Shown here piece after piece: positions 6,564 through 34,852 of a DNA stretch of 61,316 nucleotides. The stretch lies in IMG/VR virus record IMGVR_UViG_3300042465_001021, positions 1 through 61,316 of that record, one strand, 5' to 3'. The number at the start of each line of letters is the position of its first letter. Position 1 is the first letter of the stretch. This DNA comes from a virus. The position numbers were made by a program, and so were the translations under genes. Below the pieces are notes generated by a model, which was not told the DNA's origin, did not search any database, and worked only from the letters and a program-made list of their open reading frames with translations.

Positions 6564-9500
6564 ATGCCTACTTACCAGATTACTGGACCAGACGGTAGAA
6601 CTTACAGTATCGATGGTCCGGCAGGGGCTACTCGTGAGCAAGTTATTGCTGCTATTCGTAGACAACTTGCTCTTCGGCAGGGAGTAGGCGGCAAACAGCA
6701 GGCTGGCTTTGTCGAGTCCGTGAAGGAATCCGCTGCCACTCTTGGTGCTGCGCCTGCTGCGGCTAGATTTGCTGCGGCCAAAACTCCTGAAGAAAAGGCT
6801 GCGGCTCGTAAAGAACTGCTTGAAGTGGCTGGTGGAGACGAACTCGCCAAGACTTCATTTGCTGACATCCAAGACCTTCCGTCTGCGATTGACTGGGCTA
6901 AGCAAGTTGCTGGCTCTTCTGTCGGTGCGTTGGTTGCGCCGGGTGCCGCTGCGTTGGCCACGGGTCCGGTCGGTGGCGTTGCCACACTTGGTACGCAGTA
7001 CACAACTTCGAATCTTATTCGGCAGGCAGAGGAGCAAGAACGTGCTCTGGCCGAGGGTCGTCAGGCTGAAGAAACTTCTGTTGGCAAGGCTGTCGCCGCT
7101 GCCGGTGCATCAACTGCACTCGACGTTGTTGGGTTTAAGTTCTTCCAGCCACTGTTCAAATCCTTCCCGTTAGTTGGAAAACTATTTGGAGAGGGCGGTG
7201 AGAAAGCGGCCAAGGAAGCTGAAGGCAGACTTGCTGAAGCCATACAGAACAAGACTCTTACCTTCAAGGGCGGCATTGCTCGTGGCATAGCCAAGGGTGT
7301 TGCGTTTGAGGTTCCGCAAGAAATCGCGCAGACCGCTGTTGAGCGTTGGCAGGCTGGCCTGTCTCTGACCGATGCTGAAGCCAAGTCTGAATACATCGAA
7401 GCCGGTGCTGGTGCCGTACTGCTTGGCGGTGGCCTTGGTGGTGCTTCAGGTTTTGTTAGCACTCGTGATCAAAAGCGTCGTGCAGAAGAAGCCATCCGCG
7501 AGAAACGTTTTGCTGAAGAGAAGGCAAAGAAAGAAGCCGCTGAGAAACTTGCTGCCGAGAAGGGCGAGGAAACCCCGGCTGAAAAACTTGAGAAGGAACT
7601 GCGCCCTGCCGCAGCCGTCTCTGATGAACTGTTAATGAATGCTGAACGCGCCATCCGTGAGGTAGGCGACGAAGTTAAAGTCAGCGATCACGTAAACAAA
7701 CTCGTTGAGGATCTGGGCGTGTCCGTCAAGGAAGCCAAGGTCTTGATGAAGAAACTACGTGAGAATAAAGTTGTTTCGTCGAAAGACGGCAAGTTCAAAG
7801 TCAATCCGCCTGAAGTAGACGTTCTTCCTTACGTCGGTAAAGAAGGCGAGACTGATCTTGTCGAGACCACAGAACCTACGGTTACTCAAGTTGCAGCGGC
7901 GCAGGCACAACAAGCCCAAGCAGCCGATGCTGCTGCCGCCCCTCAAGTCACTGCTCCTAGCACCGTTGAAACAACGGCTGCGACCCCCACTACTACTCCT
8001 ACCGAAGGAGAAATCGCAGATGAATCTGTTGCAGGAATCAGTACTGAGCCGGTTGACACTGGAGCAGTTACAGGAGGCGCTGGTGTGCCTCCATCAGGAC
8101 TCACTACCGCAGGACCCGACCTTACAGACACTGAACGTGCAGGACTGGGGGGTGCTCCACTTCCTCCTGATGAGTCTGTTGCAGGAGAAGAAGCAGGCCA
8201 GCCTCCACTAAAGAAAGAAACACGCAAGACTAGATTAGCTGCTGTCAAGGCGGAGGTTGCTGAGCGCAAAGAGCAGCGTCGTGTACAACTGAATGAAGTC
8301 ACGGCCAATCTGAACAATCTTCGCACCATGCTGCCTGAACAGGTTGACGAAGATACCGTTACTGACCTACTTAATTTAACGACTAAATTAGAGCGTACAT
8401 ATGAGGCGCTTGACAAACTACCAGCAAACAAAACTAAAAATTACCTAAAGAAAGAAGCTAATCTTGACGCTAAAATAGTTTCTTTACGGAACAAACTTAA
8501 CTTTCTTTCTACGCTGACTGAACAGCAAACTCAGCCGTTCAAGAGCAAAGAAGAAATTGATGCGGAGTTGGAAGGCACAGAAGCCGAGGCTCAGCGCCGC
8601 GCTGCCCGTGAAGATGCGGGTGGCTTGACTGCGGAAGAAAAAGTACAGCCTGTTACTGCACAGTTTGAATCCGCACTGCGTAAAGGTATCAATAACGTAA
8701 TTGACTTCTTGGGTGTATCCGCTGCCGAAGGTGCGCGTGAGCTTCAGGCTCAGCCGGGACAAGAAGTACTTAGAACGCAAAGGGCTGCACCGGAGCAGGC
8801 GGAAGACCAACTTCAGGAAGAAATTGCTGATGAGATAGTTAGCAGGAAGCAAGCTGAAGCCAAGGGTAAGCCGACCATCGGCATGGGGCGCGTAGATAAG
8901 GATGAAAAGCGTCGTGCCAATATCGCTGCCTATGAAGTGCTGTCGGGCCTGACGGAGACACTTGGTCGTATCAGCTTTGCAGATTCTGCCGTACAGATCG
9001 AAGGCGATAACAACGCGGACCCGAACGTATTTACCCGTCTTCGCCAAGAAAACAAACTGGCGGAGTATGACCCGCAGACCAACACGTTCTACTTTACCCG
9101 TGACGGACTTTCCAAAAAGATTGTTCTACACGAGGCAGTACACGCAGCCACCGTCAAAGTACTTCGTGCATACGAGACGCAGCCTGACAGCCTGACTGAA
9201 ACGCAGCGAGATGCTGCGGATCAGATGATAAAGATCTTTACCGAGGCCAAGAAGCGTCTTGGCGGTCGCTATCGCAACGACTTTGAAAACGTCTACGAGT
9301 TCGTTAGCGGCGTGGCTACGAACAAAGATCTGCAACGCGAACTGTCCAAGATCTCGCGGCCTAACCTTGGCAAGTACACCAAGCGGGTAACTAGTCTGTG
9401 GAACCAATTCACAGAAGCCCTTGCTCGGATGTTCGGTATTGACTCGCGCAAAGGCACGAAAGCGCGGATGCTGGATGAAACTGCCCAAGTCCCCGGCATG

Positions 9501-12500
9501 AGCCGTATGCTTCCGGGTGAGGCTGGCTACCAAGGCAACCTTCTGCTTGAGGCATCGCAGGCGCTTCAGTACATCCTCTCGACTCCTGAGAAGGGTATTG
9601 ATGTGGCTCCTTTGCCTGCCCGTAAAGGTCGTGCTCGTGGGGCAGTAATAGTCGCTCCAACCACGCAAATGACTGCGGATGAAGCTTATCGAAAGTCCGC
9701 AGAGCGCGATGCAGAAAAGTACGACAAGCCTAGCACCGTAAAGAAACTGGCCAACTTCATGAGTGGTCAAGACGGCTACGAGTGGCTGGCACGTAAATTC
9801 CAGAACGACCGTCGCCCGTTGGTGTGGCTGCAAGAACAGTTGCGCCGTGCAGGGTTGATTCGTTACGACGGCGAGAACGCCAACAACATCTATGACTTGA
9901 TTGCCCTGTCGTCTGGTAAGGCTTTCCACAACATGACGCAGTATATGCAGCGTCATTACGACGACGTTCACAAGTCAATCAGAAACTATGCCGACGCCAA
10001 GGGTATCAATGTCGATCAGGCGTTAGGCCGCTTGAATATGTATCTGACCGCGCTGCACGAGCCAGAGCGTAGGCATGTGAAGTATCTGATGAACGTGCCG
10101 CTGAACAACACGACTAAAGTTAAAAGCGCCGTGCTTGGTGTTGAAGGCACCCCTGCGATGCTCCGCGAGTTCATCCTGCGTGAGTTACATAAATCAAAGG
10201 ATCTGGTCAGCAACGGTAAGGCCAAACAGTACCGCGATGTATTAGAACAACTTGTAGCCAAGTACAAAGACCGTAACGGGGCCAGCACCGTAAAAGTTAA
10301 GCCGGGTACGATGTCTCTTGATGAGAACGCCCCGGAGTACAACGTCATCGGTACGATGAATAAGACTCTCATCGACGACATCAAGAAGGACTTTGACGCT
10401 GACTCCAACAACCCGGCTACGGCTCAGCCGCTGCAAGAAATGCTGGCCGCGATGGAGCAGATTAAAGAAAACTCCAAGATGCTGGATCGGCAGGCAAACT
10501 ACTGGTCGCAGCCGGTGGATAACATCGTCGATTTCTACGGCTATCAGCATTACGTGCCGTTCAAGGGTAAGCCGCCCAAGGAAACTGACGTTAGCGAGGG
10601 TGACGAGCGATTTGAACTCGGTGGTCGCCGTCTGGGTGGAGAGTTGTCGGAAGCCGCCCAAGCGTTTGAAGGCCGTGAATCTGACTCCGATAACGTCGTT
10701 TTGCAGTTGCTGGCAGATGGCACCAAGTCTGCGATGCGGGCCGGGCGTAGCGGTGTTACGCAGGCCATTAAGAATCTCATTGACAAGAAGTACATTCGCG
10801 GCAGCAAGAATCCCAAGGTCATCAAGTTCGAGGATCGATATAAGGGTTTCGATCCTTCTGAGTACCGTGGCGAAAACAAGATCTTCCACTACACGAAGGA
10901 AGGTAACATCGAGGTCTACTCGATCAACGACAAGGTAATGCGCGATGCTATTCGCCGTGCCTACCAGACGCCAAGCCCGTTCATCGAGTTTGCCAACAAG
11001 ATCACAAGCGGCATCGGCCACTTCCACACTCGGTACAACCCGGCGTTCTACCCGTACAACTTCGTCCGCGATGCGCTAACCAATGCTTTCACGATGGGCG
11101 CAGAAATGGGTCCGAAAGCTGCGTTCGATTACATCGGCGCGGTGGCTGTGCAGATCGGCAAGATGGGTATGGCCAAGACGGGTCGCATCGCAAAGATGTA
11201 TGCCGAGGGCCGGGTCGATGAAATTGAAGCTTTGGCCAAGAAAGACCAAGACGTACGCAACATCTACGAGTACCTGCAAGAGGGTGGCCGGGTGTCGTAC
11301 GTACAAGGTCTGGCTCTGCAAGGTCAGAAGGAAGAGTTGGCCAAGAGCATCGGCAACCAGAAGTACGCCCGTACGTCCGACCAGATCAACAAGTGGGTCG
11401 ATATCTGGGCAGACTCGTTTGAGTTCACTAGCCGCGCTGCCGCTTACTCTGTGGCCAAGAGCAATGCTCTGGCACGAGGACTGACTGAACCTCAAGCTCG
11501 TCAGGAAGCCGCTGCCTATGCCAAGAACCTAGCCAACTTCGAACAGGTTGGTGAGTACGGTAAGCAGGCAGGTGCGCTGTTCATGTTCTTCCGTCCCGCT
11601 GCGACGGGTGCTGTCCGTGCGTTTGACTCAATCGCTCCGCTGTTCCAGAGGCTAGAGAACCTTGAGGCACGGCTCCCGCCGTCAATCCGTGACAACCCGG
11701 AGGCTATGGCGCAGTACCGCGAGAACTTTATTAAGCAGCGAGACATGGCCAAGGGGATGATGTATGGCCTGATGGGTGCAGGGGCGACTCTGTATCTTAT
11801 GGCATACATGGCGTCCGACGATGACGAGTTCGGTCGCAACAAGGTCGAGACTGATGACATGGCCTTGTGGACTCGCAACCTGCGCCTGCCGCTGAACATC
11901 ATCGGTAAGGAAGGGTACATGCAGTTGCCGTGGGGCTTCGGTCTGGGTGCGTTCGGCGCTGCCGGTGCACAGGTAGCAGGCACAGCCTTCGGCAAGACAT
12001 CGGTCAAGGACATGGCCGTGAACATGACCAACATCGCTATGGACTCGTTCATGCCGCTGCCGGTGTCGCGTATCGACCCCACGGAGAACTTCCCGGCGTG
12101 GATCGTGGACTCCATTGTGCCTTCGGCTGCGCGTCCGTTTGTTGAGTTCGCCATGAACGTGGACGGCCTTGGCCGTGAGATCTACAACAATCGAGCCACG
12201 AAGTACGGTGAGGCTTTCACTGGTGGCAAGAACGTGCCTGAACTCTACAAGACGATGGCTGAAGGCATCTTCAGGTTCACGAACGGTGAGCAGCAGGTTC
12301 AGCCCAACACTCTGTACTTCTGGACTAATAATTACTTAGACGGTATTTCAAGAATTGCTCATAGTGCCTACGGCATCGGACTTACGGCTTCTGGCCAGAA
12401 AGACTTTGACGCCAAGGCAGATCTCGTCCTGTTCAGTAGCTTCGTGGGTCGTAAGTCGAACTATGACGCCCGTGAGTTTGCACAGGTAGAGAGCAAGATC

Positions 12501-12797
12501 AAGGACAAGGCCGACGCCCTGCGCTCGTTGGAGAACCTTGCCAAACTAAATGGTGACGTAGCACCGCTACGTCGTTACATGGAACGCAACCCGAACGACA
12601 AGGCAATCATCTATATCTACAACAAGCAGATCAACAATCGGCTGCGTGATCTACGTTCGTTCCGTAACGCTGTGCAGAGTAATACCGAGTACACGCCGAA
12701 ACAGAAACGAGACATCATCGATCAGATCGACTTGGAGCAGAACTACATCAAGCGAGGCATGATCGAGACGTTCCGTCAGTACGGCGTGAACCCCTAG
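6564..12797 (+). CDS. Giant polyvalent virion protein with HEAVH zincin motif
   Basis: A 2077-aa protein, about a tenth of the window. Residues 1-40 form a small beta/alpha domain (ITGPDGRTYSIDGPAGATRE). Residues 115-160 and 270-295 are Gly/Ala hydrophobic, 305-350 is Lys/Glu coil and 440-560 is an Ala/Thr/Gln linker. HEAVH at 856-860, with a candidate third ligand Glu912 (NVYEFV), is a zincin metallopeptidase motif. Residues about 1480-1800 (NPAFYPYNFVRDALTNAF, later GALFMFFRPAATGAV and a hydrophobic helix near 1730) resemble the large-polyvalent-protein C-terminal domains (LPD38-like) described for phage polyvalent proteins. Such proteins are thought to be injected with DNA. Its TAG overlaps the opposing gene's stop codon. 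Confidence 0.75.
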   Translation: MPTYQITGPDGRTYSIDGPAGATREQVIAAIRRQLALRQGVGGKQQAGFVESVKESAATLGAAPAAARFAAAKTPEEKAAARKELLEVAGGDELAKTSFADIQDLPSAIDWAKQVAGSSVGALVAPGAAALATGPVGGVATLGTQYTTSNLIRQAEEQERALAEGRQAEETSVGKAVAAAGASTALDVVGFKFFQPLFKSFPLVGKLFGEGGEKAAKEAEGRLAEAIQNKTLTFKGGIARGIAKGVAFEVPQEIAQTAVERWQAGLSLTDAEAKSEYIEAGAGAVLLGGGLGGASGFVSTRDQKRRAEEAIREKRFAEEKAKKEAAEKLAAEKGEETPAEKLEKELRPAAAVSDELLMNAERAIREVGDEVKVSDHVNKLVEDLGVSVKEAKVLMKKLRENKVVSSKDGKFKVNPPEVDVLPYVGKEGETDLVETTEPTVTQVAAAQAQQAQAADAAAAPQVTAPSTVETTAATPTTTPTEGEIADESVAGISTEPVDTGAVTGGAGVPPSGLTTAGPDLTDTERAGLGGAPLPPDESVAGEEAGQPPLKKETRKTRLAAVKAEVAERKEQRRVQLNEVTANLNNLRTMLPEQVDEDTVTDLLNLTTKLERTYEALDKLPANKTKNYLKKEANLDAKIVSLRNKLNFLSTLTEQQTQPFKSKEEIDAELEGTEAEAQRRAAREDAGGLTAEEKVQPVTAQFESALRKGINNVIDFLGVSAAEGARELQAQPGQEVLRTQRAAPEQAEDQLQEEIADEIVSRKQAEAKGKPTIGMGRVDKDEKRRANIAAYEVLSGLTETLGRISFADSAVQIEGDNNADPNVFTRLRQENKLAEYDPQTNTFYFTRDGLSKKIVLHEAVHAATVKVLRAYETQPDSLTETQRDAADQMIKIFTEAKKRLGGRYRNDFENVYEFVSGVATNKDLQRELSKISRPNLGKYTKRVTSLWNQFTEALARMFGIDSRKGTKARMLDETAQVPGMSRMLPGEAGYQGNLLLEASQALQYILSTPEKGIDVAPLPARKGRARGAVIVAPTTQMTADEAYRKSAERDAEKYDKPSTVKKLANFMSGQDGYEWLARKFQNDRRPLVWLQEQLRRAGLIRYDGENANNIYDLIALSSGKAFHNMTQYMQRHYDDVHKSIRNYADAKGINVDQALGRLNMYLTALHEPERRHVKYLMNVPLNNTTKVKSAVLGVEGTPAMLREFILRELHKSKDLVSNGKAKQYRDVLEQLVAKYKDRNGASTVKVKPGTMSLDENAPEYNVIGTMNKTLIDDIKKDFDADSNNPATAQPLQEMLAAMEQIKENSKMLDRQANYWSQPVDNIVDFYGYQHYVPFKGKPPKETDVSEGDERFELGGRRLGGELSEAAQAFEGRESDSDNVVLQLLADGTKSAMRAGRSGVTQAIKNLIDKKYIRGSKNPKVIKFEDRYKGFDPSEYRGENKIFHYTKEGNIEVYSINDKVMRDAIRRAYQTPSPFIEFANKITSGIGHFHTRYNPAFYPYNFVRDALTNAFTMGAEMGPKAAFDYIGAVAVQIGKMGMAKTGRIAKMYAEGRVDEIEALAKKDQDVRNIYEYLQEGGRVSYVQGLALQGQKEELAKSIGNQKYARTSDQINKWVDIWADSFEFTSRAAAYSVAKSNALARGLTEPQARQEAAAYAKNLANFEQVGEYGKQAGALFMFFRPAATGAVRAFDSIAPLFQRLENLEARLPPSIRDNPEAMAQYRENFIKQRDMAKGMMYGLMGAGATLYLMAYMASDDDEFGRNKVETDDMALWTRNLRLPLNIIGKEGYMQLPWGFGLGAFGAAGAQVAGTAFGKTSVKDMAVNMTNIAMDSFMPLPVSRIDPTENFPAWIVDSIVPSAARPFVEFAMNVDGLGREIYNNRATKYGEAFTGGKNVPELYKTMAEGIFRFTNGEQQVQPNTLYFWTNNYLDGISRIAHSAYGIGLTASGQKDFDAKADLVLFSSFVGRKSNYDAREFAQVESKIKDKADALRSLENLAKLNGDVAPLRRYMERNPNDKAIIYIYNKQINNRLRDLRSFRNAVQSNTEYTPKQKRDIIDQIDLEQNYIKRGMIETFRQYGVNP

Positions 12798-13000
12798 GTT
12801 ACTCTCCAGACCCGGACACCAAGACACCCGTCCTTTGCAGACGGGTACACCTTGACTCTGATCTTGGCTTTCTTTGCCGACGTATCTACTTTGTAGATCA
12901 TCTCGGCTGGCTTGAGAGTAGGCACGAAGAAACTGTCCCCAATCTGCATGAAGTCAAACGGGAACAGCCACTCCGGTTCCTCAAGCCTTTGTAAGTTCAT
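12794..13000 (-). CDS. Small protein with FPFD..QIGDSFFVPT motif
   Basis: A 68-aa protein that starts inside the last 20 bases of the primase-helicase gene. WLFPFDFMQIGDSFFVPT and the C-terminal VRVWRVT match a small protein family common in phage replication regions; the family has no agreed function. It is the last gene of the minus-strand arm. Its TAG and the TAG of the giant plus-strand gene share the palindrome CTAG at 12794-12797, so the two transcription units converge with no intergenic terminator. Confidence 0.65.
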   Translation of the reverse strand: MNLQRLEEPEWLFPFDFMQIGDSFFVPTLKPAEMIYKVDTSAKKAKIRVKVYPSAKDGCLGVRVWRVT

Positions 13001-15794
13001 TCACCAGATTCTCTACATTCTCATCCTTGAACGAGTATACCCACACCGGATGGAAACTTGAGCCGCCCTTCCACCCTGCACCAAGACGCTTCTTCTCGGT
13101 GTTGACCAGAAGTCCCTGCGTGGTCATAACGTGTTCAAACTTACGTACGCTGATGCCACGGGTAGACAAGAACTTCTTAAACTCCGTACGGGATACGTAA
13201 TACATTTTAGTATCCGACTCGATGCGGCCAAGTAACTGCCTCGGGTCGTACTGGTTGACCAAACGATCACCGTCGAAGATCAAGAAGGTGGACTGATTCA
13301 GGTTGCAGAACTCACCAAGCAAAGTCTTGTAGTCGCTCGGATCGATCTTCACCGCGTTGTCGCGGATGTCCATGATGTCAGTTAAGACTTTCTGGTAGAT
13401 GTGATCCAGATCAAGGTTGGTGATCCCGGCTTCGTTGGCGATCTCGCCGCCTGCGAAAGCAGCAGCAACTAGACTCTCGTAGAAGCGATGGCTAACGTCG
13501 TCGCCAAAGTCAGCACGGAATCGGTACTGCCAAGCTTCGATCTTTCTCTTGATCTGCTCCTCGCCAATCTTATACAAGTACTTGATGAATTCCGGGCCTG
13601 CGTGCCCATAGTTAAAGCGGAATGGGTTAAACATCTGCATACCCAACTCGCGGGTTAGGGCATGGGGCCGCTTCACATCGAACTCAACGATACGAGCCAC
13701 CTCACCGTCCGGGCTTGCCTTCAGTTGCTGCAACTTGTCGTAGAGCGGCGAGTTAGTCGTGAAGATTCCAATCAGCGAGGCAGTCATCTCCAAGTCTCGT
13801 TCGGCGTTGACCGAGGACTGCATACGCAACTTGGCCTTACCTTGCGAGATGCGGTGAGCCAGACGGGAGATTGCTTCAGGGTCTGCGTTGGATGCTTCGT
13901 CGATACCAAGCGGCAGGTTCTTCAGATTCAGCAACCGACCAACAAACGCATTATCCGTCGCGTTGCCATCCAGTACGCTGAGTTCTCTCGGGTCACCCCA
14001 GACAGAAAGTGCAGAGTACATGGCGCTCGTCTTACCCGTGCCTGATTCCGCGCTTGCAAAAGAGACGCACACACCCGCCGTTGGGGTCAGGTACATCAAG
14101 GGTGAGCCAAACCCGCACAGCAAACCAAAGGCATGAAGTTCAAACCCCGGAGCATTCATCGCATTCGCAGACTGCTTCCACAAGTCATACTCGCCAGTGG
14201 GTCGAAGTAGTTTAGAAATGTTACGAACCAAAGGACTCGCGGATGCTTTGACAACCTCGCCGCTAGGAGTTACCTCAGTTCCACCGATAACGAAAGCGTC
14301 ACGGTTTTCTGTCCATCCCATCTGCATACGCATGATTTCCGCCTTGTGTTTACTCATCAAGTATTGATCCCACTTGATGATGTAGTTTTGTAAGTGAGTG
14401 ATATGAGTCGGCAAGAAAGTAACGCTGTGGCTACTCAATACCTTCCTAAACAAATCCAGTGCATACACCGAACTCATCGGTAGGATGAATTCTCGCATAG
14501 GATCGTGCTGCATCAAGTGTCGCATCAAAAGACATTCGCCGTCTGCGGTGCTGTACATTCTTTTTACCGGGAATAAATCATTCACCGATAAGCACACCGG
14601 GTCGTCCTGAATCTTGACTCCTTCCTCATCCACCTTTGGTGGCGGCACAAAATAAACGCCGCCGTTCTTGCCACGGGTGTAGGGCTTCAGGAAGGCAGGG
14701 AATGTTGGAACCTCTTCGGGATTCTCCGTGATCCGAACTGTGTCCTCCTCGGACACTTCTTGTGTCGGGGCTTCAAGGAGCCGCTTTCCGATAGCAAGTG
14801 GGTTTGTAACCTTTCCTCGTAGTGGGCAACCGTCACAGCCACCGGGGTTGAGTTGGTCGAACTTGTCGCAGGAGAAGGGCTTGCCAAATGCCTGATTAGC
14901 CTTTTTAACAGTTGTTTCATAGTTGTAACCGGGGTGATCCTCTGACATCAAATGGATAGCACTTTCCCAATCGGTGCAGTGCCGTGCGATTGATAACCCC
15001 GCATACCACAGTGGTTCTTCCAACGTGGCAGCATTGACGAGAATGTGCTTGATCTGAGCGCAGCCCTCATCGCCCAGACTCTTCTCAGCAATGTTTTGGA
15101 ACGTCGTCTCGTAGTTATCCAGACGAGCAATCTTCTTGGTGTCCTCGTCGAGACCTTTCGGAAACATATCCAAAAGACTTGTAGTATCCGGCGCAATAAC
15201 ACCCAGAAAGTCCTTGAAGTCTTCAAAACTGTACTGCCCAAAATCGTGATCCAGCAGCTTAGTTTCGATTGGCTCGTTCTTGTAATTAACTGTTTGGGGA
15301 CAGCGCAAGATACGTGCAGCATCGGCCGTTACTGCCGGGTCAATCTTGATGTGGTCTAAGCACAGTTGCTTGAACTTCAGTGCATACGGCTTCCACTCCT
15401 CGGTAGGAATGTCTCGGTCAAAAAGCCAATACGCATGGACGCCACCGCCTGAATCCACCTTGACTGGTGGAGGCAGTCCGACCATATCAACAAAGTCATT
15501 CAGCGCAGCAAGAGCCTCGTCCTTGCTACGGTACTTCTTTGCGTTGTCGCCTACGTCCAGATCGATAAAGAACGACCGGCAGTAGATGGCATTTTCGGCA
15601 CGACGGCTATAGCCGTTGAACGTGTTTAACGCGACGAATACATTTTGGTTTTCCTCTTTTAGTCCTTCTACCAAGTCCAACAAATCGCTGAGTGTCTCTG
15701 CAAACCGATTGGTAATCTTCCCTTCTTTGTCGATACCTGCGGCACAGTAAACACCCTGCGACGGTAATGCTTTCTCGTAAAATTCTTTTATCAT
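12981..15794 (-). CDS. Bifunctional AEP-type primase and P-loop helicase
   Basis: A 937-aa protein. The N-terminal third has archaeo-eukaryotic primase signatures: FIDLDVG near residues 74-80 (metal-binding DxD) and SGGGVHAYW near 113-122. A Cys cluster (CDKFDQLNPGGCDGC, about 310-325) could bind zinc. The C-terminal half has a P-loop SGTGKTS near 582-588, then PLGIDEAS near 630-635 (Walker B), then an FTTNSP sensor, as in DUF927/D5-like phage helicases. It would prime and unwind DNA at the phage fork with the family A polymerase. The start is only 14 bases after a terminator-like hairpin and lacks a strong Shine-Dalgarno, so expression likely depends on readthrough. Confidence 0.85.
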   Translation of the reverse strand: MIKEFYEKALPSQGVYCAAGIDKEGKITNRFAETLSDLLDLVEGLKEENQNVFVALNTFNGYSRRAENAIYCRSFFIDLDVGDNAKKYRSKDEALAALNDFVDMVGLPPPVKVDSGGGVHAYWLFDRDIPTEEWKPYALKFKQLCLDHIKIDPAVTADAARILRCPQTVNYKNEPIETKLLDHDFGQYSFEDFKDFLGVIAPDTTSLLDMFPKGLDEDTKKIARLDNYETTFQNIAEKSLGDEGCAQIKHILVNAATLEEPLWYAGLSIARHCTDWESAIHLMSEDHPGYNYETTVKKANQAFGKPFSCDKFDQLNPGGCDGCPLRGKVTNPLAIGKRLLEAPTQEVSEEDTVRITENPEEVPTFPAFLKPYTRGKNGGVYFVPPPKVDEEGVKIQDDPVCLSVNDLFPVKRMYSTADGECLLMRHLMQHDPMREFILPMSSVYALDLFRKVLSSHSVTFLPTHITHLQNYIIKWDQYLMSKHKAEIMRMQMGWTENRDAFVIGGTEVTPSGEVVKASASPLVRNISKLLRPTGEYDLWKQSANAMNAPGFELHAFGLLCGFGSPLMYLTPTAGVCVSFASAESGTGKTSAMYSALSVWGDPRELSVLDGNATDNAFVGRLLNLKNLPLGIDEASNADPEAISRLAHRISQGKAKLRMQSSVNAERDLEMTASLIGIFTTNSPLYDKLQQLKASPDGEVARIVEFDVKRPHALTRELGMQMFNPFRFNYGHAGPEFIKYLYKIGEEQIKRKIEAWQYRFRADFGDDVSHRFYESLVAAAFAGGEIANEAGITNLDLDHIYQKVLTDIMDIRDNAVKIDPSDYKTLLGEFCNLNQSTFLIFDGDRLVNQYDPRQLLGRIESDTKMYYVSRTEFKKFLSTRGISVRKFEHVMTTQGLLVNTEKKRLGAGWKGGSSFHPVWVYSFKDENVENLVNELTKA

Positions 15795-15855: not shown

Positions 15856-15870
15856 TCAGATCAAATCTGA
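15856..15870. promoter_or_regulatory. Perfect dyad TCAGAT-CAA-ATCTGA
   Basis: Six-base arms with a three-base centre, overlapping the stop codon of the HTH gene and upstream (in transcription sense) of the terminator and the primase gene. It could be an operator for the adjacent HTH protein, part of an RNA stem, or chance. Confidence 0.3.
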
Positions 15871-16172
15871 CCTCCAACCATATCCTCGATGTAGAGTTTG
15901 GCATCGATCATGTTGGGGGCAGGAAGCCTACCTGACTCCATGTCTTTCTCCACAATGGTCATAAAGGCTTCAACAACCTTACGCTTCTCCTCACGGATAC
16001 CTTGGCCACGGAACCACGCATAGACAGTCATGCGTGAGATCTTCAATGCTTTGGCCACGTATGTCGCGGGGAGATTAGCCTCGACACACAGCCTCCCAAG
16101 TTTCACTCCCAAACGAGTAGGATCTGCGTCCTTCAGGCCGAGCAGAAATTCGTAACTGTATGAACGAGGCAT
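15861..16172 (-). CDS. Small helix-turn-helix protein
   Basis: A 103-aa protein with GGAG five bases before the ATG. Residues about 22-55 (LGVKLGRLCVEANLPATYVAKALKIS, then RMTVYAWFRG) have the spacing and residues of an HTH DNA-binding domain of the Cro/C1 type. The C-terminal half is a charged helix and tail. Genes like this recur next to phage replication genes. It may regulate the replication operon or act as an accessory replication protein. It is the only clear small HTH regulator besides the sigma-like protein, so it is one candidate for binding the dyads noted in the early arm. Confidence 0.7.
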   Translation of the reverse strand: MPRSYSYEFLLGLKDADPTRLGVKLGRLCVEANLPATYVAKALKISRMTVYAWFRGQGIREEKRKVVEAFMTIVEKDMESGRLPAPNMIDAKLYIEDMVGGQI

Positions 16173-16181
16173 GACGGCTCC

Positions 16182-17021
16182 TTACTTCTTCGCCCACTTC
16201 TTGACGACTTCCGCTGCATCAGCGTTGACGACTTCGGGCTTCTTCGCGGCCTCACGCAACTTCGGCTCATCGCCAGACTGCGCGACTTCCGCTGCGTCAC
16301 CTTCATCTGCCTGATACACGGTCAACTTGATAGCAGTCTCAGCAGCCGCCGAATCACGCTGCTTCAGGATGGCGTCGTAGTCTTCCTGCGGAACCGGAGC
16401 CACAGGCGAGAACAACAACTTCGGCACAGGCGACTTCGTGTCGAACTGCATCTTCGTAACCACACGACCTGCCGAGATATTGTTGTTAGCCAACATCTGA
16501 ATGTACGGGCGGAACGGGAACTTGCCGCTGTCCTCCTTACCAAAGCAAGACGTAGCCGGAAGAACCAACTGCATCACATCGCCTGCCGGGTCATGCGGCA
16601 GAACAACAGCAGTACGCCACGACAAACGGCAAGCAGCGCCGCTACCGCCTTGGCCAGAACCCTTCACAGAGAACTGACACTTGTCGCAAGCAGAAGCCTG
16701 CGGAGTCTTAACGTCGGCATCCGGAGCCTTACCGTCAGACGACCAGCACGTAGGAGCAGACTTCTCGCCTTCCTTGTACGTGCCAGAGTAGTAGGTACGG
16801 GCAGCGTTGTGCGCCATCTTCACAAAGATCACGTTCATGTGGCGATCTTCGATCGTGCCTACTTCCTTGCCACCGGCCATCTTACGGAACACGCCGCCTT
16901 TGATGGAGATGCGCTTGGTACCGCCGTTAGCACCGCCTGCGACTGCAAGAGTGTCAGCGTCCAACCCACCCTGAATCTGGGAGAGTTGATTCTTCAAATT
17001 AGCAATGATGTCGTTAGCCAT
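16182..17021 (-). CDS. Putative ssDNA-binding replication protein
   Basis: A 279-aa protein preceded by AGAGG. The N-terminal half is beta-rich (RISIKGGVFRKMAGGKEVG, then MNVIFVKMAHNAARTYYSG). A Cys cluster, ACDKCQFSV then GAACRLSWR, at about residues 112-133 could form a zinc site. The C-terminal third is Ala/Glu-rich and ends with basic KKWAKK. Size, zinc-like site inside a beta-rich core, acidic tail region and position between helicase and primase suggest a single-stranded DNA-binding protein of the gp32/gp2.5 functional type. I do not recognise the exact family. Confidence 0.5.
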   Translation of the reverse strand: MANDIIANLKNQLSQIQGGLDADTLAVAGGANGGTKRISIKGGVFRKMAGGKEVGTIEDRHMNVIFVKMAHNAARTYYSGTYKEGEKSAPTCWSSDGKAPDADVKTPQASACDKCQFSVKGSGQGGSGAACRLSWRTAVVLPHDPAGDVMQLVLPATSCFGKEDSGKFPFRPYIQMLANNNISAGRVVTKMQFDTKSPVPKLLFSPVAPVPQEDYDAILKQRDSAAAETAIKLTVYQADEGDAAEVAQSGDEPKLREAAKKPEVVNADAAEVVKKWAKK

Positions 17022-19514: not shown

Positions 19515-20171
19515 CTATCTGCCTCCATAAAATTTGCACGATTCAACTGGGCAATGCTTGCGGCACAGCCCGGTCGGGTTAGGCGGCCATACTGCGTTGT
19601 CGAATGCAATACTCAACCTGCCTAGTTCTACTTCAAAGACCTTCCACATTCCCTCAATGTCATCCCTGACATACTCTTCCGTAATGAAGATGTTGTGCAA
19701 AAGAAACATTAGCCCAGACTTTATGTTCTGTACCGCCGGGAAATGTGCAAAGACCATCAATCCCATCAACTTCAACTGGTTCGGGTCGGCATAGGTCGGC
19801 TTGCCTGTCTTGTAATCGACGATGTAGGCGGTGTCCCCGTCTACGATCAGCAAGTCGGCTATGCCCCGTACCCAGTAATCCTCCCCGCCAAACTCACACG
19901 GCTCCTTGGCTGCATTCAGTGCCATCTCGTGTTCGCAATACTTGGTTCCCGGTATCTCAAGGAGCGGGTCAACCATCTTGCTAAACGGCTCATAGAACTT
20001 CGGCAGCGCAACGCCGTCCCTCACATAATCTTCTAGTGCCTTGTGAACCTCTTTACCGTACCGGGCATCATCACCCTCTCGGGATATGAAGTTCTTGGCG
20101 ACACGGATCTCATAGTACTGCTTCGGACAAGTCTTGTACTGTTTGAGACTGCTGTAACTCCACTTGACCAT
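19515..20171 (-). CDS. Cas4/RecB-like PD-(D/E)XK exonuclease
   Basis: A 218-aa protein. The ATG at 20171 overlaps the polymerase TAA. Motifs: GKEVH near residue 40 (His), GIADLLIVDG then IVDYKTGKP (Asp and D-x-K active site, about residues 103-124), and a QxxLMGLM-type helix. Cys15 (YKTC) and the C-terminal C203, C207 and C212 give the one-plus-three Cys pattern of Fe-S cluster RecB/AddB/Cas4 nucleases. There is no CRISPR array or other cas gene in the window, so it most likely processes DNA ends in replication or recombination with the adjacent polymerase and helicase. Confidence 0.85.
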   Translation of the reverse strand: MVKWSYSSLKQYKTCPKQYYEIRVAKNFISREGDDARYGKEVHKALEDYVRDGVALPKFYEPFSKMVDPLLEIPGTKYCEHEMALNAAKEPCEFGGEDYWVRGIADLLIVDGDTAYIVDYKTGKPTYADPNQLKLMGLMVFAHFPAVQNIKSGLMFLLHNIFITEEYVRDDIEGMWKVFEVELGRLSIAFDNAVWPPNPTGLCRKHCPVESCKFYGGR

Positions 20172-22027
20172 TAACAATCCCCATAGGACTCTCCGTATTT
20201 AGCTTCACAAGCGACGGGTAGTCCGGTTGCCCAATCTGGTGGAGTAGACATTACTTTAGTTATGAACGCAAGTGCTTCATCTATCTCAGGTTTTGGAACC
20301 ACAATTACGGCAGCGTCATGCACCGTCAGCACCGGACGGTATTTTTCCCGGATCTTTAACATCTGTTCCCCGACGATGATCCGGGCGAGTGCCTGCACCA
20401 CGTTCTCCACGACAGCGCCGCCCCATATCGTGACCTTGCCCTTGCGAGAATCGTACGTAGCCTTATTGTCTTCGTATCGTAGGTTGGGGTAATTAATCTT
20501 TAGACCATTCGGCAGGAATATGCCTTTGTTAGACGCACGTACGACTGCGTGTTCCCCAAGCATGTATCCGTACCTTTCACCCTCCAACACGATCATATCC
20601 TTCAAAGCCTGATCACATTCACGCCACAACTCGACGATCCTGTAGTTAGATTCTCGGTACAGATCGACAATCGCTTTGCACTGCTTCTCAGTCAGATCAG
20701 CACCGGGCGGTTGCGTCTTCAGTGTGTGCTGCAACTTGGCCGCGCCTGTGCCGTAACCCAATCCCAAGATACAAGTCTTACCGACGAATCGTTCGACCGG
20801 ATCAGCCTTGCTGATGTGCCGCTTGTAAATCTTCGATGCAAAGATCGAATACACATCCTCGCCCTTGCGGAACTGACTCGTTACGTCAGACTGTCCTGCC
20901 AACCATGCAAGTACACGGGCTTCTATTTGCGACGAGTCGCAGTTGATAATGAAATGACCCTGCGGAGCGACCACCGAATTCTTGAGTGCCTTCTTTTTCT
21001 TGTCTCGTGAAGGAAGGTTTTGTAGGTTGACGGAATCCATGCCCGACCAACGGCCTGTGTGAGCGCCGTAATACTTGAGCGGGATAGGTAGCCGACCGCG
21101 ATTCCTAGCACCAATATGTATAAAGCGTTCAATTCTTGACTCCTCTAGTGTTGATTTAGTCCCAAGTCTGACTGCACACAACTGCTGCACGAACGGATCT
21201 TCATGCTCCGTCAACGCGATGAATCCCGTATCATTCTTAGCAAGTGCGAATGTTTCCTTGCCAGTCGCAGGGCTAATCTTCATCGGCACAGAAATGTTCA
21301 GACCTTGCAAGATGGCAGCAAACTGTGGGTTGCTTGCCAACTTCTTTCTCACATCTTCTTCAGTCTCACACTTCAACTGTTCTTTCAGTTCGGACAGGAT
21401 GGTGTGCTTCTCTTTCTTGACTTCTTCAAGTCGTGTGACAAGTAACGCATCGTCCACCATCAATACCGGCTCCGTGTACATACGGAGCGTCATGTCGATC
21501 AAGTCTAGTTCTGGTTCCGGAAACGTAACAACCAACCTACTAAAAAGATCATAGGTAAGATCAACATCGTTGCAGCAATAACCAGCATACTTATCAAGAT
21601 CTCCAGAACTAAAATCCAACCTCTTCTTACCCAGTGCATTGATTACCTCCGTTCCTTTCTCCCCCAAGTTATATCGTTTTGCAAGCGCAGCGAGGGAGCC
21701 ACCCGCATCTACGCCGTGAGTTGCTCTGGCCATGCAGAGCGTGTCGAATAGATACGCAGGCTTGATGTCGAACACCCACGACAGGATTGCCCCATCAAAC
21801 TGAGTGTTGTGACACAGGAGCGCAGACGTATTCCAGTCCACTTGGTTTAGCCAAGCCTTGATCTCTTCGTGAGTACCGCTGAACCACTCGGTCTCGTTGT
21901 TGTCGATCTTCATAGCCACGCCGATAACTTCAAACCTCGGGTCGCGGATGTACTCCTCGGTCGTCAGTTTGGTTAGGCTATAGTCCTTGGCGTAATACGT
22001 TTCAAAGTCGAGCGTTATGAAACTCAT
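20171..22027 (-). CDS. polA: Family A DNA polymerase with 3'-5' exonuclease domain
   Basis: A 618-aa protein. I place the start at ATG 22027, which has GAGGGCG upstream. Exonuclease motif I is DFE at residues 7-9. Polymerase motif A is CDSSQIEARVLA near 361. Motif B is RFVGKTCILGLGYG with Lys417, and the residue equivalent to E. coli Phe762 is Leu421. Motif C is HDA at 570-572, where most family A enzymes have HDE. No 5'-3' exonuclease domain is present, as usual in phages. This is the replicative polymerase, acting with the helicase, primase-helicase and Cas4-like nuclease on the same transcript. Confidence 0.93.
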   Translation of the reverse strand: MSFITLDFETYYAKDYSLTKLTTEEYIRDPRFEVIGVAMKIDNNETEWFSGTHEEIKAWLNQVDWNTSALLCHNTQFDGAILSWVFDIKPAYLFDTLCMARATHGVDAGGSLAALAKRYNLGEKGTEVINALGKKRLDFSSGDLDKYAGYCCNDVDLTYDLFSRLVVTFPEPELDLIDMTLRMYTEPVLMVDDALLVTRLEEVKKEKHTILSELKEQLKCETEEDVRKKLASNPQFAAILQGLNISVPMKISPATGKETFALAKNDTGFIALTEHEDPFVQQLCAVRLGTKSTLEESRIERFIHIGARNRGRLPIPLKYYGAHTGRWSGMDSVNLQNLPSRDKKKKALKNSVVAPQGHFIINCDSSQIEARVLAWLAGQSDVTSQFRKGEDVYSIFASKIYKRHISKADPVERFVGKTCILGLGYGTGAAKLQHTLKTQPPGADLTEKQCKAIVDLYRESNYRIVELWRECDQALKDMIVLEGERYGYMLGEHAVVRASNKGIFLPNGLKINYPNLRYEDNKATYDSRKGKVTIWGGAVVENVVQALARIIVGEQMLKIREKYRPVLTVHDAAVIVVPKPEIDEALAFITKVMSTPPDWATGLPVACEAKYGESYGDC

Positions 22028-22203
22028 GACGCCCTCGCAACAACAAGTTTCCAACCTTTTCCGGTCTCAACAAATCCTGCCGCTGCCAATGCCTCAACTG
22101 ATCGGCAACCACCAAACTTGTATCGATGTGAATGAAACGCGCCTGCCGTAGCAAACTTGCGCTTACACTCAGTACACCTTCTTTCTTGCTTTACGACGCT
22201 CAC
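22024..22203 (-). CDS. Small CxxC zinc-finger protein
   Basis: A 59-aa open frame starting at GTG 22203, with AGAGAGG seven bases upstream, and ending in a TGA that overlaps the polymerase ATG (ATGA). The sequence contains CTECKRKFATAGAFHSHR followed by FGGC, then a GFVETGKGWKL end: a CxxC plus His/Cys zinc finger of the short phage type with a FxxHR core. It overlaps the preceding gene by 35 bases in another frame. The good ribosome site and the start-stop overlap argue that it is real and translationally coupled to the polymerase. Confidence 0.7.
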   Translation of the reverse strand: MSVVKQERRCTECKRKFATAGAFHSHRYKFGGCRSVEALAAAGFVETGKGWKLVVARAS

Positions 22204-28246: not shown

Positions 28247-29239
28247 TCAAACCTCGATCAGGTATGCAGGACAGTCAGCCCAGTAAGCACGGACGACAGA
28301 CCCTGCCGCAGGCCATACCGTCGTAGCCGTATCACGCACAGGCAGCAACTCGCTACTCCCCGTGTGAACTTTTAACATCATCAGCGATGGCATCAGTTGT
28401 GCCTTCAGATCCTCGGGCAGATTGTCGAGGGACTTGTGCCACGCTGCACCATGTATCTCAAAGTGATCGCGGTTGGAGTGCCTTTTACTTACACAGTAAG
28501 TCTCAATTTCTTTCAGCAAAGCATCACGACCCACACGGCCAATGATGTAACCGTCGAGAATGTCTTTGACGATGATCCACTTGTCACCAAGCACAAACGA
28601 TCTCGCTTGTCTCGCGGCTTCTTCGCGCTTCTCAAGTTGCCGCATATATTCTTTATGCCGAATCTCGCATACACGGTAGGAGTCAGGACTCATCGACGCA
28701 CGATCAATCTCGCCCATCGCCAGTCTGATGAGTTCGATACGAGTGTCACCATCTAATGACTCAACACTCGGTGTTTCAAACAATGCCCTATAACCTTCAT
28801 ACATGGCAGACGAGATCAACTCTCTGATCAGATGACTCAACTTGGTGCGCCCGGCCACAGTCCAGTCCTTGATCTGGTTGGAGTGCTTCTTCAAGTTTGC
28901 TGCGATGTATTTGATGTTGGTACTACGCAGCACAGCGTCCGTCGTGTATTCGTTCAATCGCAGGCCAGAAGCAAAAGAATTATTGATGTAGTCAAACAGC
29001 CAGTACTTTGTAGACGACTTCGGATGCTTGGCCAGTCCGATGCACGCGACCGGCACACCTTCCTTCGTCGTGAACACCATGTGTTTATTTTCTACCTCAT
29101 AGTTCACACCCCCGATCACCCACTCACCCTCGGTGATGTTGTAGAGTTGTGCGTACACGCTCCAGTAGTCAGAGCGCATGATGGCTGCTTGCTCATACTG
29201 CGGGAACTTGTTGGCCAGAAAGAATTTTGATAAGTCCAT
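28247..29239 (-). CDS. Hypothetical protein, 330 aa
   Basis: The ATG at 29239 has AGG six bases upstream. Mostly alpha/beta with WSVYAQLYN, VACIGLAKHP and a long helical C-terminal half (CEIRHKEYMRQLEKREEAARQ split). No catalytic motif is visible. It sits downstream of the VWA and small-protein genes in the early operon. I recall similar proteins in environmental phage genomes near MoxR/VWA pairs but no function. Confidence 0.6.
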   Translation of the reverse strand: MDLSKFFLANKFPQYEQAAIMRSDYWSVYAQLYNITEGEWVIGGVNYEVENKHMVFTTKEGVPVACIGLAKHPKSSTKYWLFDYINNSFASGLRLNEYTTDAVLRSTNIKYIAANLKKHSNQIKDWTVAGRTKLSHLIRELISSAMYEGYRALFETPSVESLDGDTRIELIRLAMGEIDRASMSPDSYRVCEIRHKEYMRQLEKREEAARQARSFVLGDKWIIVKDILDGYIIGRVGRDALLKEIETYCVSKRHSNRDHFEIHGAAWHKSLDNLPEDLKAQLMPSLMMLKVHTGSSELLPVRDTATTVWPAAGSVVRAYWADCPAYLIEV

Positions 29240-29240
29240 G

Positions 29241-29462
29241 TCACACCTCACTTTCAAAGATAGTTGCGTCTAACACAGGTTGATCCGTTGCCTTAAGCAA
29301 ACGGTTAGCGATCTGCCGAATCTCGTCGATGTTGTCGCCCACCATGCACACGGTTGAATATCCTTCAGGTTTGTCATCGTCGTCGTAGAACACCTCGGCA
29401 AAGGTGTAATACTCATCGCCCCACGCATCGATGTGGCGTAATACTCTGTGATTCCAAGTCAT
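29241..29462 (-). CDS. Small acidic hypothetical protein
   Basis: A 73-aa protein with AGGA ahead of the ATG. MTWNHRVLRHIDAWGDEYYTFAEVFYDDDD is followed by an IDEIRQIANRLLKA helix. Acidic and compact, it resembles small phage proteins that start MTWNYRV; no function is known. It is packed within 2-5 bases of its neighbours. Confidence 0.6.
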   Translation of the reverse strand: MTWNHRVLRHIDAWGDEYYTFAEVFYDDDDKPEGYSTVCMVGDNIDEIRQIANRLLKATDQPVLDATIFESEV

Positions 29463-33093: not shown

Positions 33094-33113
33094 AACTTTC
33101 TCTCCTGTTGTGA

Positions 33114-33129
33114 TTCACTTCGTGGTGAA
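33114..33129. promoter_or_regulatory. Operator-like dyad TTCAC-TTCGTG-GTGAA (copy A)
   Basis: Lies at about +37 to +52 of the transcript from the 33.17-33.20 kb promoter, upstream of the DUF3150-like gene. It is followed on the plus strand by GTCTTAAATAACG, a flank shared with copies B (34128) and C (34670). Confidence 0.6.
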
Positions 33130-33172
33130 GTCTTAAATAACGTTGTGTATCTGTCGCTCTACCATTTTCAAT

Positions 33173-33201
33173 ATTATAACAAAGGTTTACATATAAAGCA
33201 A
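33173..33201 (-). promoter_or_regulatory. Sigma70-type promoter TTGCTT-17-TATAAT (module A)
   Basis: Minus-strand -35 TTGCTT at 33196-33201, -10 TATAAT at 33173-33178, spacer 17. It drives the DUF3150-like/MoxR/VWA operon, with a predicted 73-nt leader. The sequence just upstream of the -35 (GCTCAAACCCC) and that around the -10 are shared with module B at 34187-34215, so the promoter has been duplicated. Confidence 0.8.
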
Positions 33202-33226
33202 GGGGTTTGAGCAAAAAAGTTATCTA

Positions 33227-34108: not shown

Positions 34109-34127
34109 GTCGTTCTCCTTTCTGCGA

Positions 34128-34143
34128 TTCATGTCTGGGTGAA
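34128..34143. promoter_or_regulatory. Operator-like dyad TTCAT-GTCTGG-GTGAA (copy B)
   Basis: At about +37 to +52 of the module B transcript, the same offset as copy A in module A. One half-site differs (TTCAT). The pairing needed for an RNA stem ACUUC/GAAGU is lost here while the DNA dyad is kept, which favours a protein-binding operator. Confidence 0.55.
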
Positions 34144-34186
34144 GTCTTAATTAGCGTCGCTCTTCATGCCTTCCTCGATTTTCTAT

Positions 34187-34215
34187 AGTATAACAAACAT
34201 TTACGAATAAATCAA
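34187..34215 (-). promoter_or_regulatory. Sigma70-type promoter TTGATT-17-TATACT (module B)
   Basis: Minus-strand -35 TTGATT at 34210-34215, -10 TATACT at 34187-34192, spacer 17. Predicted leader of about 72 nt to the ATG at 34108. Closely similar to module A over the -35 upstream block, spacer and -10. Confidence 0.8.
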
Positions 34216-34270
34216 GGGGTTTGAGCAAAAAAGATATCTGGCGAAGTGTGTCCGGTAGGTGGATAAAATC

Positions 34271-34623
34271 TGTTCCACTTGTTCCAACTTGTTCCAATTT
34301 TGAAACTTAGCTAATGGAACAGAACGCGATTTGGGTGAAGTTGTAAGTTATTGTTTTTTATAGATTTAGTAGTAGTAGTAGTAGTTAAAAAATGTATGTT
34401 GTTCCATTGTTCCATGAATTTTAGATAGGAAGGATATAACCCCCTGTTGCTTTACTCTCCGCGCAAAAGACTTTGCCGACTCGGTTCCGACCCTGCTGTT
34501 CCAGTCCCTACCTAAAAAACTTGGAACATTGGAACAGAATTTGACTTTTCTTAATAAAAACAATGACTTAGCGATTTTGAACTTGGAACAAAACTTGGAA
34601 CAAGTTGGAACAGACTTGGAACA
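34271..34623. repeat. Inverted array of 13 TGTTCCA/TGGAACA repeats, candidate origin
   Basis: This noncoding stretch has TGTTCCA at 34271, 34280, 34290, 34400, 34408 and 34497, and the complement TGGAACA at 34315, 34522, 34530, 34584, 34596, 34606 and 34617. Neighbouring copies are spaced 8-12 bases, about one helical turn. The outer clusters (34271-34303 and 34589-34623) form an imperfect inverted repeat of about 33 bases. The centre holds an AT-rich tract and six AGT triplets (34367-34385). The pattern resembles an iteron-type replication origin or a multi-site operator. An open frame of 102 codons across it is only a by-product of the repeats. The rest of 34144-34852 holds no gene. Confidence 0.75.
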
Positions 34624-34669
34624 ACAGGGTGCGTGAGTTTTTTTCGTAATTAACCACGCTTGAACTTGA

Positions 34670-34685
34670 TTCACTTCGAGGTGAA
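34670..34685. promoter_or_regulatory. Operator-like dyad TTCAC-TTCGAG-GTGAA (copy C)
   Basis: Between the repeat array and the 34.8 kb terminator. It shares the GATTCACTTCG.GGTGAAGTCTTA.. block with copy A, but no promoter occurs at the expected distance upstream, so it looks like a leftover of a third module or a site with another purpose. Confidence 0.5.
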
Positions 34686-34803
34686 GTCTTATTTAGTGGA
34701 ACTACCTGCGTGGTCTGGACGTTGTTTTGGCCATGCCTCTCCCCGCGCAAACGCGACACGCGCGCACAAACAAGGAACTGGCTTCAATCCTGCTTCGCGC
34801 AGG

Positions 34804-34837
34804 CAAAAAAATACCCGGTGACCTTGCGGCCACCGGG
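34804..34837 (-). terminator. Strong Rho-independent terminator after the first early gene
   Basis: Minus strand: CCCGGTG/CACCGGG perfect 7-bp stem with a 10-nt loop, followed by a run of T residues (A-run 34805-34811 on the plus strand). It starts 16 bases after the stop codon at 34853 and makes the first early gene monocistronic. Confidence 0.85.
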
Positions 34838-34852
34838 CGAAGTTGGGAAGTG

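Follow-up and report, generated by a model that had tools for sequence, protein, structure and literature searches.

Where does replication of this phage begin? The DNA analysed here, 61,316 bases long and listed in IMG/VR as a virus record, is called the window throughout. It carries 13 copies of TGTTCCA or its reverse complement TGGAACA within 353 noncoding bases (34271–34623), an array that an earlier note had read as a candidate origin of the iteron type. Our search of the literature did not find a description of the replication start for the group to which this phage belongs. On the sequence evidence set out below, the array is a very strong candidate for the phage's replication origin; the explanation that best covers the whole, and that we consider probable, is an origin read by a phage-encoded PrimPol-helicase, with loading and melting aided by IHF.

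Genomic setting

The rightward arm of the genome, from 36.6 kb, encodes TerL, the portal and the major head protein, and the leftward arm, from 34 kb, an AAA ATPase, a VWA/DUF2201 protein, DNA polymerase A, an SNF2-type helicase and a DUF927 primase-helicase. TerL is 50–53% identical to its counterparts in the Pelagibacter phages HTVC027P and HTVC023P and the lake phage DSL-LC04; in a collection of cellular genomes its sole relative is on one contig binned with a Rhodocyclaceae MAG, a weak pointer to the host. No close DNA match to the window was found among phage records. The label lytic used here has one basis, that no integrase was seen among the proteins searched.

A 720-bp gap between leftward ORFs (34133–34852) houses the array. 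Where the earlier note put it between the first early gene and the start of the replication arm, the array is upstream of the leftward replication arm and precedes the rightward packaging arm by about 1.1 kb. Rfam, tRNA and tmRNA searches of the window returned no match. As proposed for an origin, the cumulative GC-skew minimum falls near the array (0.5–3.7 kb away in six genomes), a measure confounded by gene orientation: because the minimum coincides with the switch in gene orientation, it is not independent evidence. Nearby, a 117-nt repeat (33109–33225 and 34123–34239, 76% identical) precedes two leftward genes and resembles a leftward promoter or leader common to both; part of it, TGATTCACTTCGAGGTGAAGTCTTA, is an imperfect palindrome with a third copy to the right of the array (34667–34691).

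Architecture of the array

Exact word search reproduces the six forward and seven reverse copies reported earlier. Across the whole window there are 24 copies where 9.6 ± 3.4 would be expected, and the 11 outside the array are scattered, with at most two per 420 bp; equal density elsewhere, which would have spoken against the reading, is thus not seen. Any 7-mer with at least five copies per 420 bp turned up in only one of 20 shuffled windows. The parts of the array are as follows.

34271–34296 (+), left outer iterons TGTTCCA, starting at 34271, 34280 and 34290; found by word search, the cluster being kept in relatives
34315–34321 (−), single opposed iteron, found by word search; L027 and L085 have one too
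34344–34356 (−), left IHF-like site AAACAATAACTTA, one mismatch to WATCAANNNNTTR; phased at about 11 bp to the inner pair
34357–34399 (no strand), AT-rich tract with (AGT)6 at 34368–34385; presumed unwinding element
34400–34414 (+), inner left tandem iteron pair, starting at 34400 and 34408 (8-bp step)
34415–34521 (no strand), centre of 107 bp, 53% AT, holding a further iteron at 34497–34503 (+); its length is phased at about 11 bp in relatives
34522–34536 (−), inner right tandem iteron pair, inverted, starting at 34522 and 34530
34558–34570 (+), right IHF-like site AAACAATGACTTA, one mismatch to WATCAANNNNTTR
34584–34623 (−), right outer iterons, inverted, starting at 34584, 34596, 34606 and 34617

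Several details of the first description change at this resolution. The 8–12-base spacing holds for neighbours within clusters but not between clusters, which are 25, 54, 85 and 89 bp apart. The 33-base outer inverted repeat reduces to a detectable repeat of 22 nt with 95% complementarity (34280–34301 with 34591–34612). The six AGT triplets do lie in an 80% AT tract, to the left of the inner left pair rather than centrally, and the centre itself, described before as AT-rich, has the base composition listed above. For the 80% AT of positions 34344–34399, about 1 in 10,000 of the window's 56-bp stretches is an equal.

The sequence TAAGTNNTTGNTT occurs twice in the window, both times inside the array (0.1 expected), and in relatives it is mostly found in the array too. 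Reversed, it reads AATCAANNACTTA, which fits the IHF consensus, WATCAANNNNTTR. The oriC, R6K and pSC101 origins are assisted by IHF (PMC4980987).

Conservation of the plan and change of the word

Searches with TerL and AAA gave 114 related loci, and many of those that reach the region have, at the same place, a two-orientation cluster of one 7-mer; further genomes, found through the HTH protein described below, also carry arrays. At the matching place in related phages we recovered 41 non-redundant arrays, so the objection that relatives might lack the array falls away. Exact-word search recognised no array in G055, which covers the region, and a comparable array was not recognised in DSL-LC04, HTVC023P, HTVC027P or Rhizobium phage RHph_TM27A; the marine relative 023Pt_psg01 has a smaller cluster, of TGGCACA, at the end of its replication arm.

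The word varies between lineages, TTGT being followed by TCCA, TCCG, TCTA, ACGC, GCCG, GTCA or GCAC. Words are mostly uniform within one genome, and some arrays are mixed.

TTGT + TCCA: most arrays
TTGT + TCCG: G004, G068
TTGT + TCTA: L099, L110
TTGT + ACGC/ACGG: G006, G011–G014
TTGT + GCCG/GCCA, mixed with TCC: G003, G005
TTGT + GTCA: G046, G071
TTGT + GCAC/GCAG: G041
Other forms: TGTTGCCA (G072), AAATTCCA (L101)

Palindromic words, TCCTGACA...TGTCAGGA, are repeated near arrays of the ACGC/ACGG group (G011, G012 and G013; L172–L176) and are possibly a second operator family.

From left to right, the common plan runs through outer iterons (TTGT on the plus strand), an IHF-like site, an AT-rich tract and tandem iterons 7–9 bp apart; after the centre come an inverted tandem pair, an inverted IHF-like site and inverted outer iterons. 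In all but one of 30 arrays (29 of the 30) the left side has the higher AT content, and the words conserved inside the centre are mostly T-runs. Allowing at most one mismatch, 28 of 30 arrays have the IHF-like motif at the left position and 23 have it at the right, as compared to 16% of shuffled left segments; both consensus and phase are found in most relatives at this tolerance, each of the window's two copies carrying one mismatch. When whole genomes were searched for an inverted pair of tandem 7-mers 95–160 bp apart, the matches fell almost solely at the array locus and a shuffled control gave nothing; six of the 16 genomes had no match, some of them genomes with looser arrays. The array would serve as a marker by which the origins of other members of this phage group could be located.

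Three distances in the arrays change in steps. The left IHF-like site is near 43, 55, 66, 76 or 88 bp from the inner pair, the right pair is 9–10, 21–22 or 30–33 bp from the right IHF-like site, and the centre measures 96, 105–109 or 115–119 bp in nearly all arrays. Phasing at about 11 bp gives mean vectors of 0.87, 0.86 and 0.74 for the three, and none of 2000 random draws was as high, the probabilities being inexact because the arrays share descent. Given steps of about 11 bp, the parts stay on one face of the helix as the lengths change, and the constraints of a nucleoprotein complex would produce such changes by whole turns.

A candidate initiator

Genes of the leftward arm that may bear on the use of the array are these.

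12981–15794 (−), PrimPol-helicase, 937 aa, proposed initiator, with a C-terminal winged helix at about residues 865–925 (DUF927, E 1e-20; PDB 5dgk and 8tch)
15861–16172 (−), XRE-like HTH protein, 103 aa, adjoining the PrimPol-helicase gene; possible partner
16182–17021 (−), 279-aa replication-operon protein, kept in relatives and in phage Rollin
17447–19033 (−), SNF2-type DNA helicase
20171–22054 (−), DNA polymerase A

Around a DUF927 helicase core, the PrimPol-helicase has AEP-primase-like motifs at its N-terminus (FIDLDVG and SGGGVHAYW, identified by eye) and a C-terminal domain that is modelled as a winged helix (pLDDT 81). Compared by sequence with the PDB, the protein matches SCCmec Cch (5dgk, E 5e-8) and SaPIbov1 Rep (8tch, E 3e-7). 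A Foldseek comparison of the C-terminal model with the PDB returned 5dgk and 8tch chains as its best four matches, the support being moderate given E values of 1e-3 to 8e-3 and TM scores below 0.5. In SaPI Rep it is the C-terminal domain that binds iterons (PMC7581432), and PICI origins consist of an AT-rich region flanked by two iteron sets (PMC6092414). The 103-aa HTH protein, XRE-like in fold, is present in all relatives examined and had no match in phage records. The 279-aa protein possibly binds ssDNA, a guess from its sequence that stands outside any database assignment.

We propose that the PrimPol-helicase would bind the iterons through its C-terminal winged helix, like SaPI Rep, the two opposed iteron sets loading two helicase hexamers in opposite directions. 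Host IHF, or a similar bender, would join the outer and inner iteron complexes, and the AT-rich tract would melt; the fused primase-polymerase domain would prime for the phage's DNA polymerase A, with forks departing both ways, and the HTH protein encoded next door may have a stabilising or regulatory role in the complex. Against this proposal stands the distance of 18 kb between the PrimPol-helicase gene and the array, whereas SaPI origins lie directly downstream of rep.

Two other proteins of the window were compared with their counterparts in relatives. The 336-aa protein encoded at 28247–29257 is 21–32% identical in relatives, compared with 40–90% for neighbouring genes; the family is part of a cassette that also includes a 306-aa protein, a MoxR-like AAA ATPase and a VWA protein; this cassette was not detected in some relatives and is possibly a diversifying counter-defence or host-takeover module. 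The rightward arm has at its end a 2077-aa protein (6564–12797) that is 29–75% identical in relatives and had no match among PHROG families.

A second case: Pseudomonas phage Rollin

Pseudomonas phage Rollin encodes a PrimPol-helicase that is 26% identical to that of the window, together with homologs of PolA, the SNF2 helicase and the 279-aa protein; homologs of the window phage's TerL, portal and capsid protein were not detected there, Rollin's TerL being of another family and encoded about 6 kb from the array. A long noncoding stretch of Rollin has eight copies of TATGCAA in 420 bp, in both orientations (one expected in 12 kb), of which three in tandem adjoin a run of (AAT)n, rich in AT. 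The IHF-like motif found in the window's array recurs here as TAAGTNNTTGATT, whose only copy in the Rollin record is located in this stretch. Since array and motif accompany homologous replication genes and unrelated packaging genes, the plan travels with the replication module, not with packaging. A second repeat, of AAAAGGTAGYAAGTTACTACCTTTT palindromes, lies interspersed among the TATGCAA copies at positions 1–500 of the Rollin locus (L333).

A similar plan and a related initiator are therefore seen both in a widespread uncultured phage group and in a cultured Pseudomonas phage. Position and layout kept despite the change of word, phasing at about 11 bp, paired IHF-like sites, an AT-rich tract, an initiator-type helicase and the Rollin array all support the iteron-origin reading put forward in the earlier note.

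Alternative readings of the array

The word could instead mark an operator or enhancer array, at which a regulator made by the phage (the 103-aa HTH protein is one candidate) would control the leftward early promoter just left of the array. Although this protein is kept in all relatives examined, its recognition helix varies in part with the word, and a promoter-like sequence does lie beside the array (34215–34187, minus strand; such matches are no commoner than chance), we consider the reading unlikely: clusters of the word occur at this site alone, which leaves no second promoter with it, the Rollin array accompanies a Rep-type helicase, and a repressor would need less than two inverted sets, IHF-like sites in pairs and an AT-rich tract. 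Origin and operator roles can coexist in one array.

A packaging site (cos or pac), its repeats bound by the terminase small subunit with IHF, appears improbable. In lambda, the terminase small subunit and IHF bind repeats at cosB, and a cosB-like element would fit the repeats and IHF-like sites seen here; moreover, the array precedes by about 1.1 kb a 206-aa gene that is itself ahead of terL, and the TGGCACA cluster of 023Pt_psg01 is near an annotated terS. The packaging model, however, gives the AT-rich tract and the symmetric inner pairs no role, and in Rollin the array is found with homologous replication genes and a TerL of another family about 6 kb off.

A DnaA-type origin, in which host DnaA would occupy DnaA boxes, the AGT/AAG run would serve as DnaA-trios and the iterons would be auxiliary, is very improbable: there is one 8/9 DnaA box (34258–34266), some relatives have perfect boxes in or beside their arrays and many arrays have triplet runs near the inner pair, but many genomes are without a perfect box at the array, NAN-triplet runs exceed shuffles in fewer than half of the arrays (and are absent from G018, G003, L110 and L032), and 9-bp DnaA boxes are a poor match for iterons spaced at 8 bp. 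Conserved boxes beside at least three NAN triplets, the mark of a DnaA-box/DnaA-trio origin (BUS), were found in some relatives only. We rejected the AGT run as DnaA-trios because triplet runs are not universal across the arrays, and for that reason treat the tract solely as an unwinding element rich in AT.

Which protein reads the word

Returning to an origin used by the PrimPol-helicase, we lean, by analogy, towards its C-terminal domain as the iteron reader because of the homology to SaPI Rep; next comes the HTH protein, or both together. Covariation across 1281 variable columns of four proteins made no single reader stand out: HTH position 47 ranks 37 and PrimPol C-terminal positions 918, 901 and 916 rank 9, 12 and 25, columns that are among the better, yet not exceptional. 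Iteron class follows phylogeny. The HTH recognition helix partly tracks the word (SR.T with TCCA, SKTT with ACGC), yet G046 and G049, with identical recognition helices and similar PrimPol C-termini, have different words. The helix as sole reader was rejected on the ground that identical helices accompany different words in G046, G049 and G003. The 336-aa protein was likewise set aside as iteron binder, its 306aa-AAA-VWA cassette being undetected in the array-bearing G046, G049, G071 and G072. The existence of mixed arrays (G003, G012) points to a reader for which TTGT is required but more than one second half is acceptable.

Speculatively, the family may have kept one origin machine with a conserved initiator (the PrimPol-helicase, with or without its HTH partner) and repeatedly switched the variable half of the iteron, giving at least seven specificities; satellites, co-infecting phages or origin-targeting defence may drive such switching, as in PLE-Odn. 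The arrays form a natural collection of iteron variants for studying how origin specificity changes.

Comparison with known systems

We know of no comparable iteron array in the crenarchaeal plasmid pRN1. This plasmid likewise has a gene for a small DNA-binding protein beside that for a multifunctional replication protein (orf56/orf904; PMC4234260), the small protein belonging to another family.

The iteron plasmids R6K, pSC101, P1 and RK2 (PMC4980987) have in common with the array iterons, an AT-rich unwinding element and, in several, the aid of IHF; that cooperativity in these plasmids is lost at half a turn of the helix (PMC4980987) is in line with the phasing seen here. They differ in having direct repeats of about 17–22 bp and a winged-helix Rep without helicase activity. 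Direct repeats of that length, expected of an iteron-plasmid or lambda O origin, were not found in the array, where iterons of 7–8 bp form two inverted sets.

The PLE RepA iterons and ICP1 Odn (PMC8263062, PMC7145576) offer a parallel in that these are phage-satellite origins in which iterons and the DNA-binding domains of initiators were swapped or restructured under attack. They differ in that PLE RepA is a RepA_N protein without a helicase, and its iterons are three semi-palindromes of about 30 bp.

By analogy, the array would work like the origin of a PICI/SaPI (SaPIbov1, E. coli PICIs; PMC6092414, PMC7581432), although the phage is no PICI by membership. Both have two iteron sets and an AT-rich region, words that are island-specific there and vary by lineage here, and a self-loading helicase initiator of the Cch/SaPIbov1 Rep kind with a C-terminal DNA-binding domain, which in the window is a winged helix assigned by homology and modelling. 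A satellite island has no capsid genes of its own, whereas TerL, portal and major head protein are present here, and the array (34.3–34.6 kb) is not immediately downstream of the PrimPol-helicase gene (13.0–15.8 kb). The phage further differs in a primase-polymerase fused to the helicase and in extra inner tandem pairs, IHF-like sites and a centre of about 107 bp; its AT-rich tract is one-sided rather than central, and because this tract is placed between the outer and the inner iterons of the left side, the match is one of plan, not of detail. The correspondence suggests that satellites and lytic phages share a replication module.
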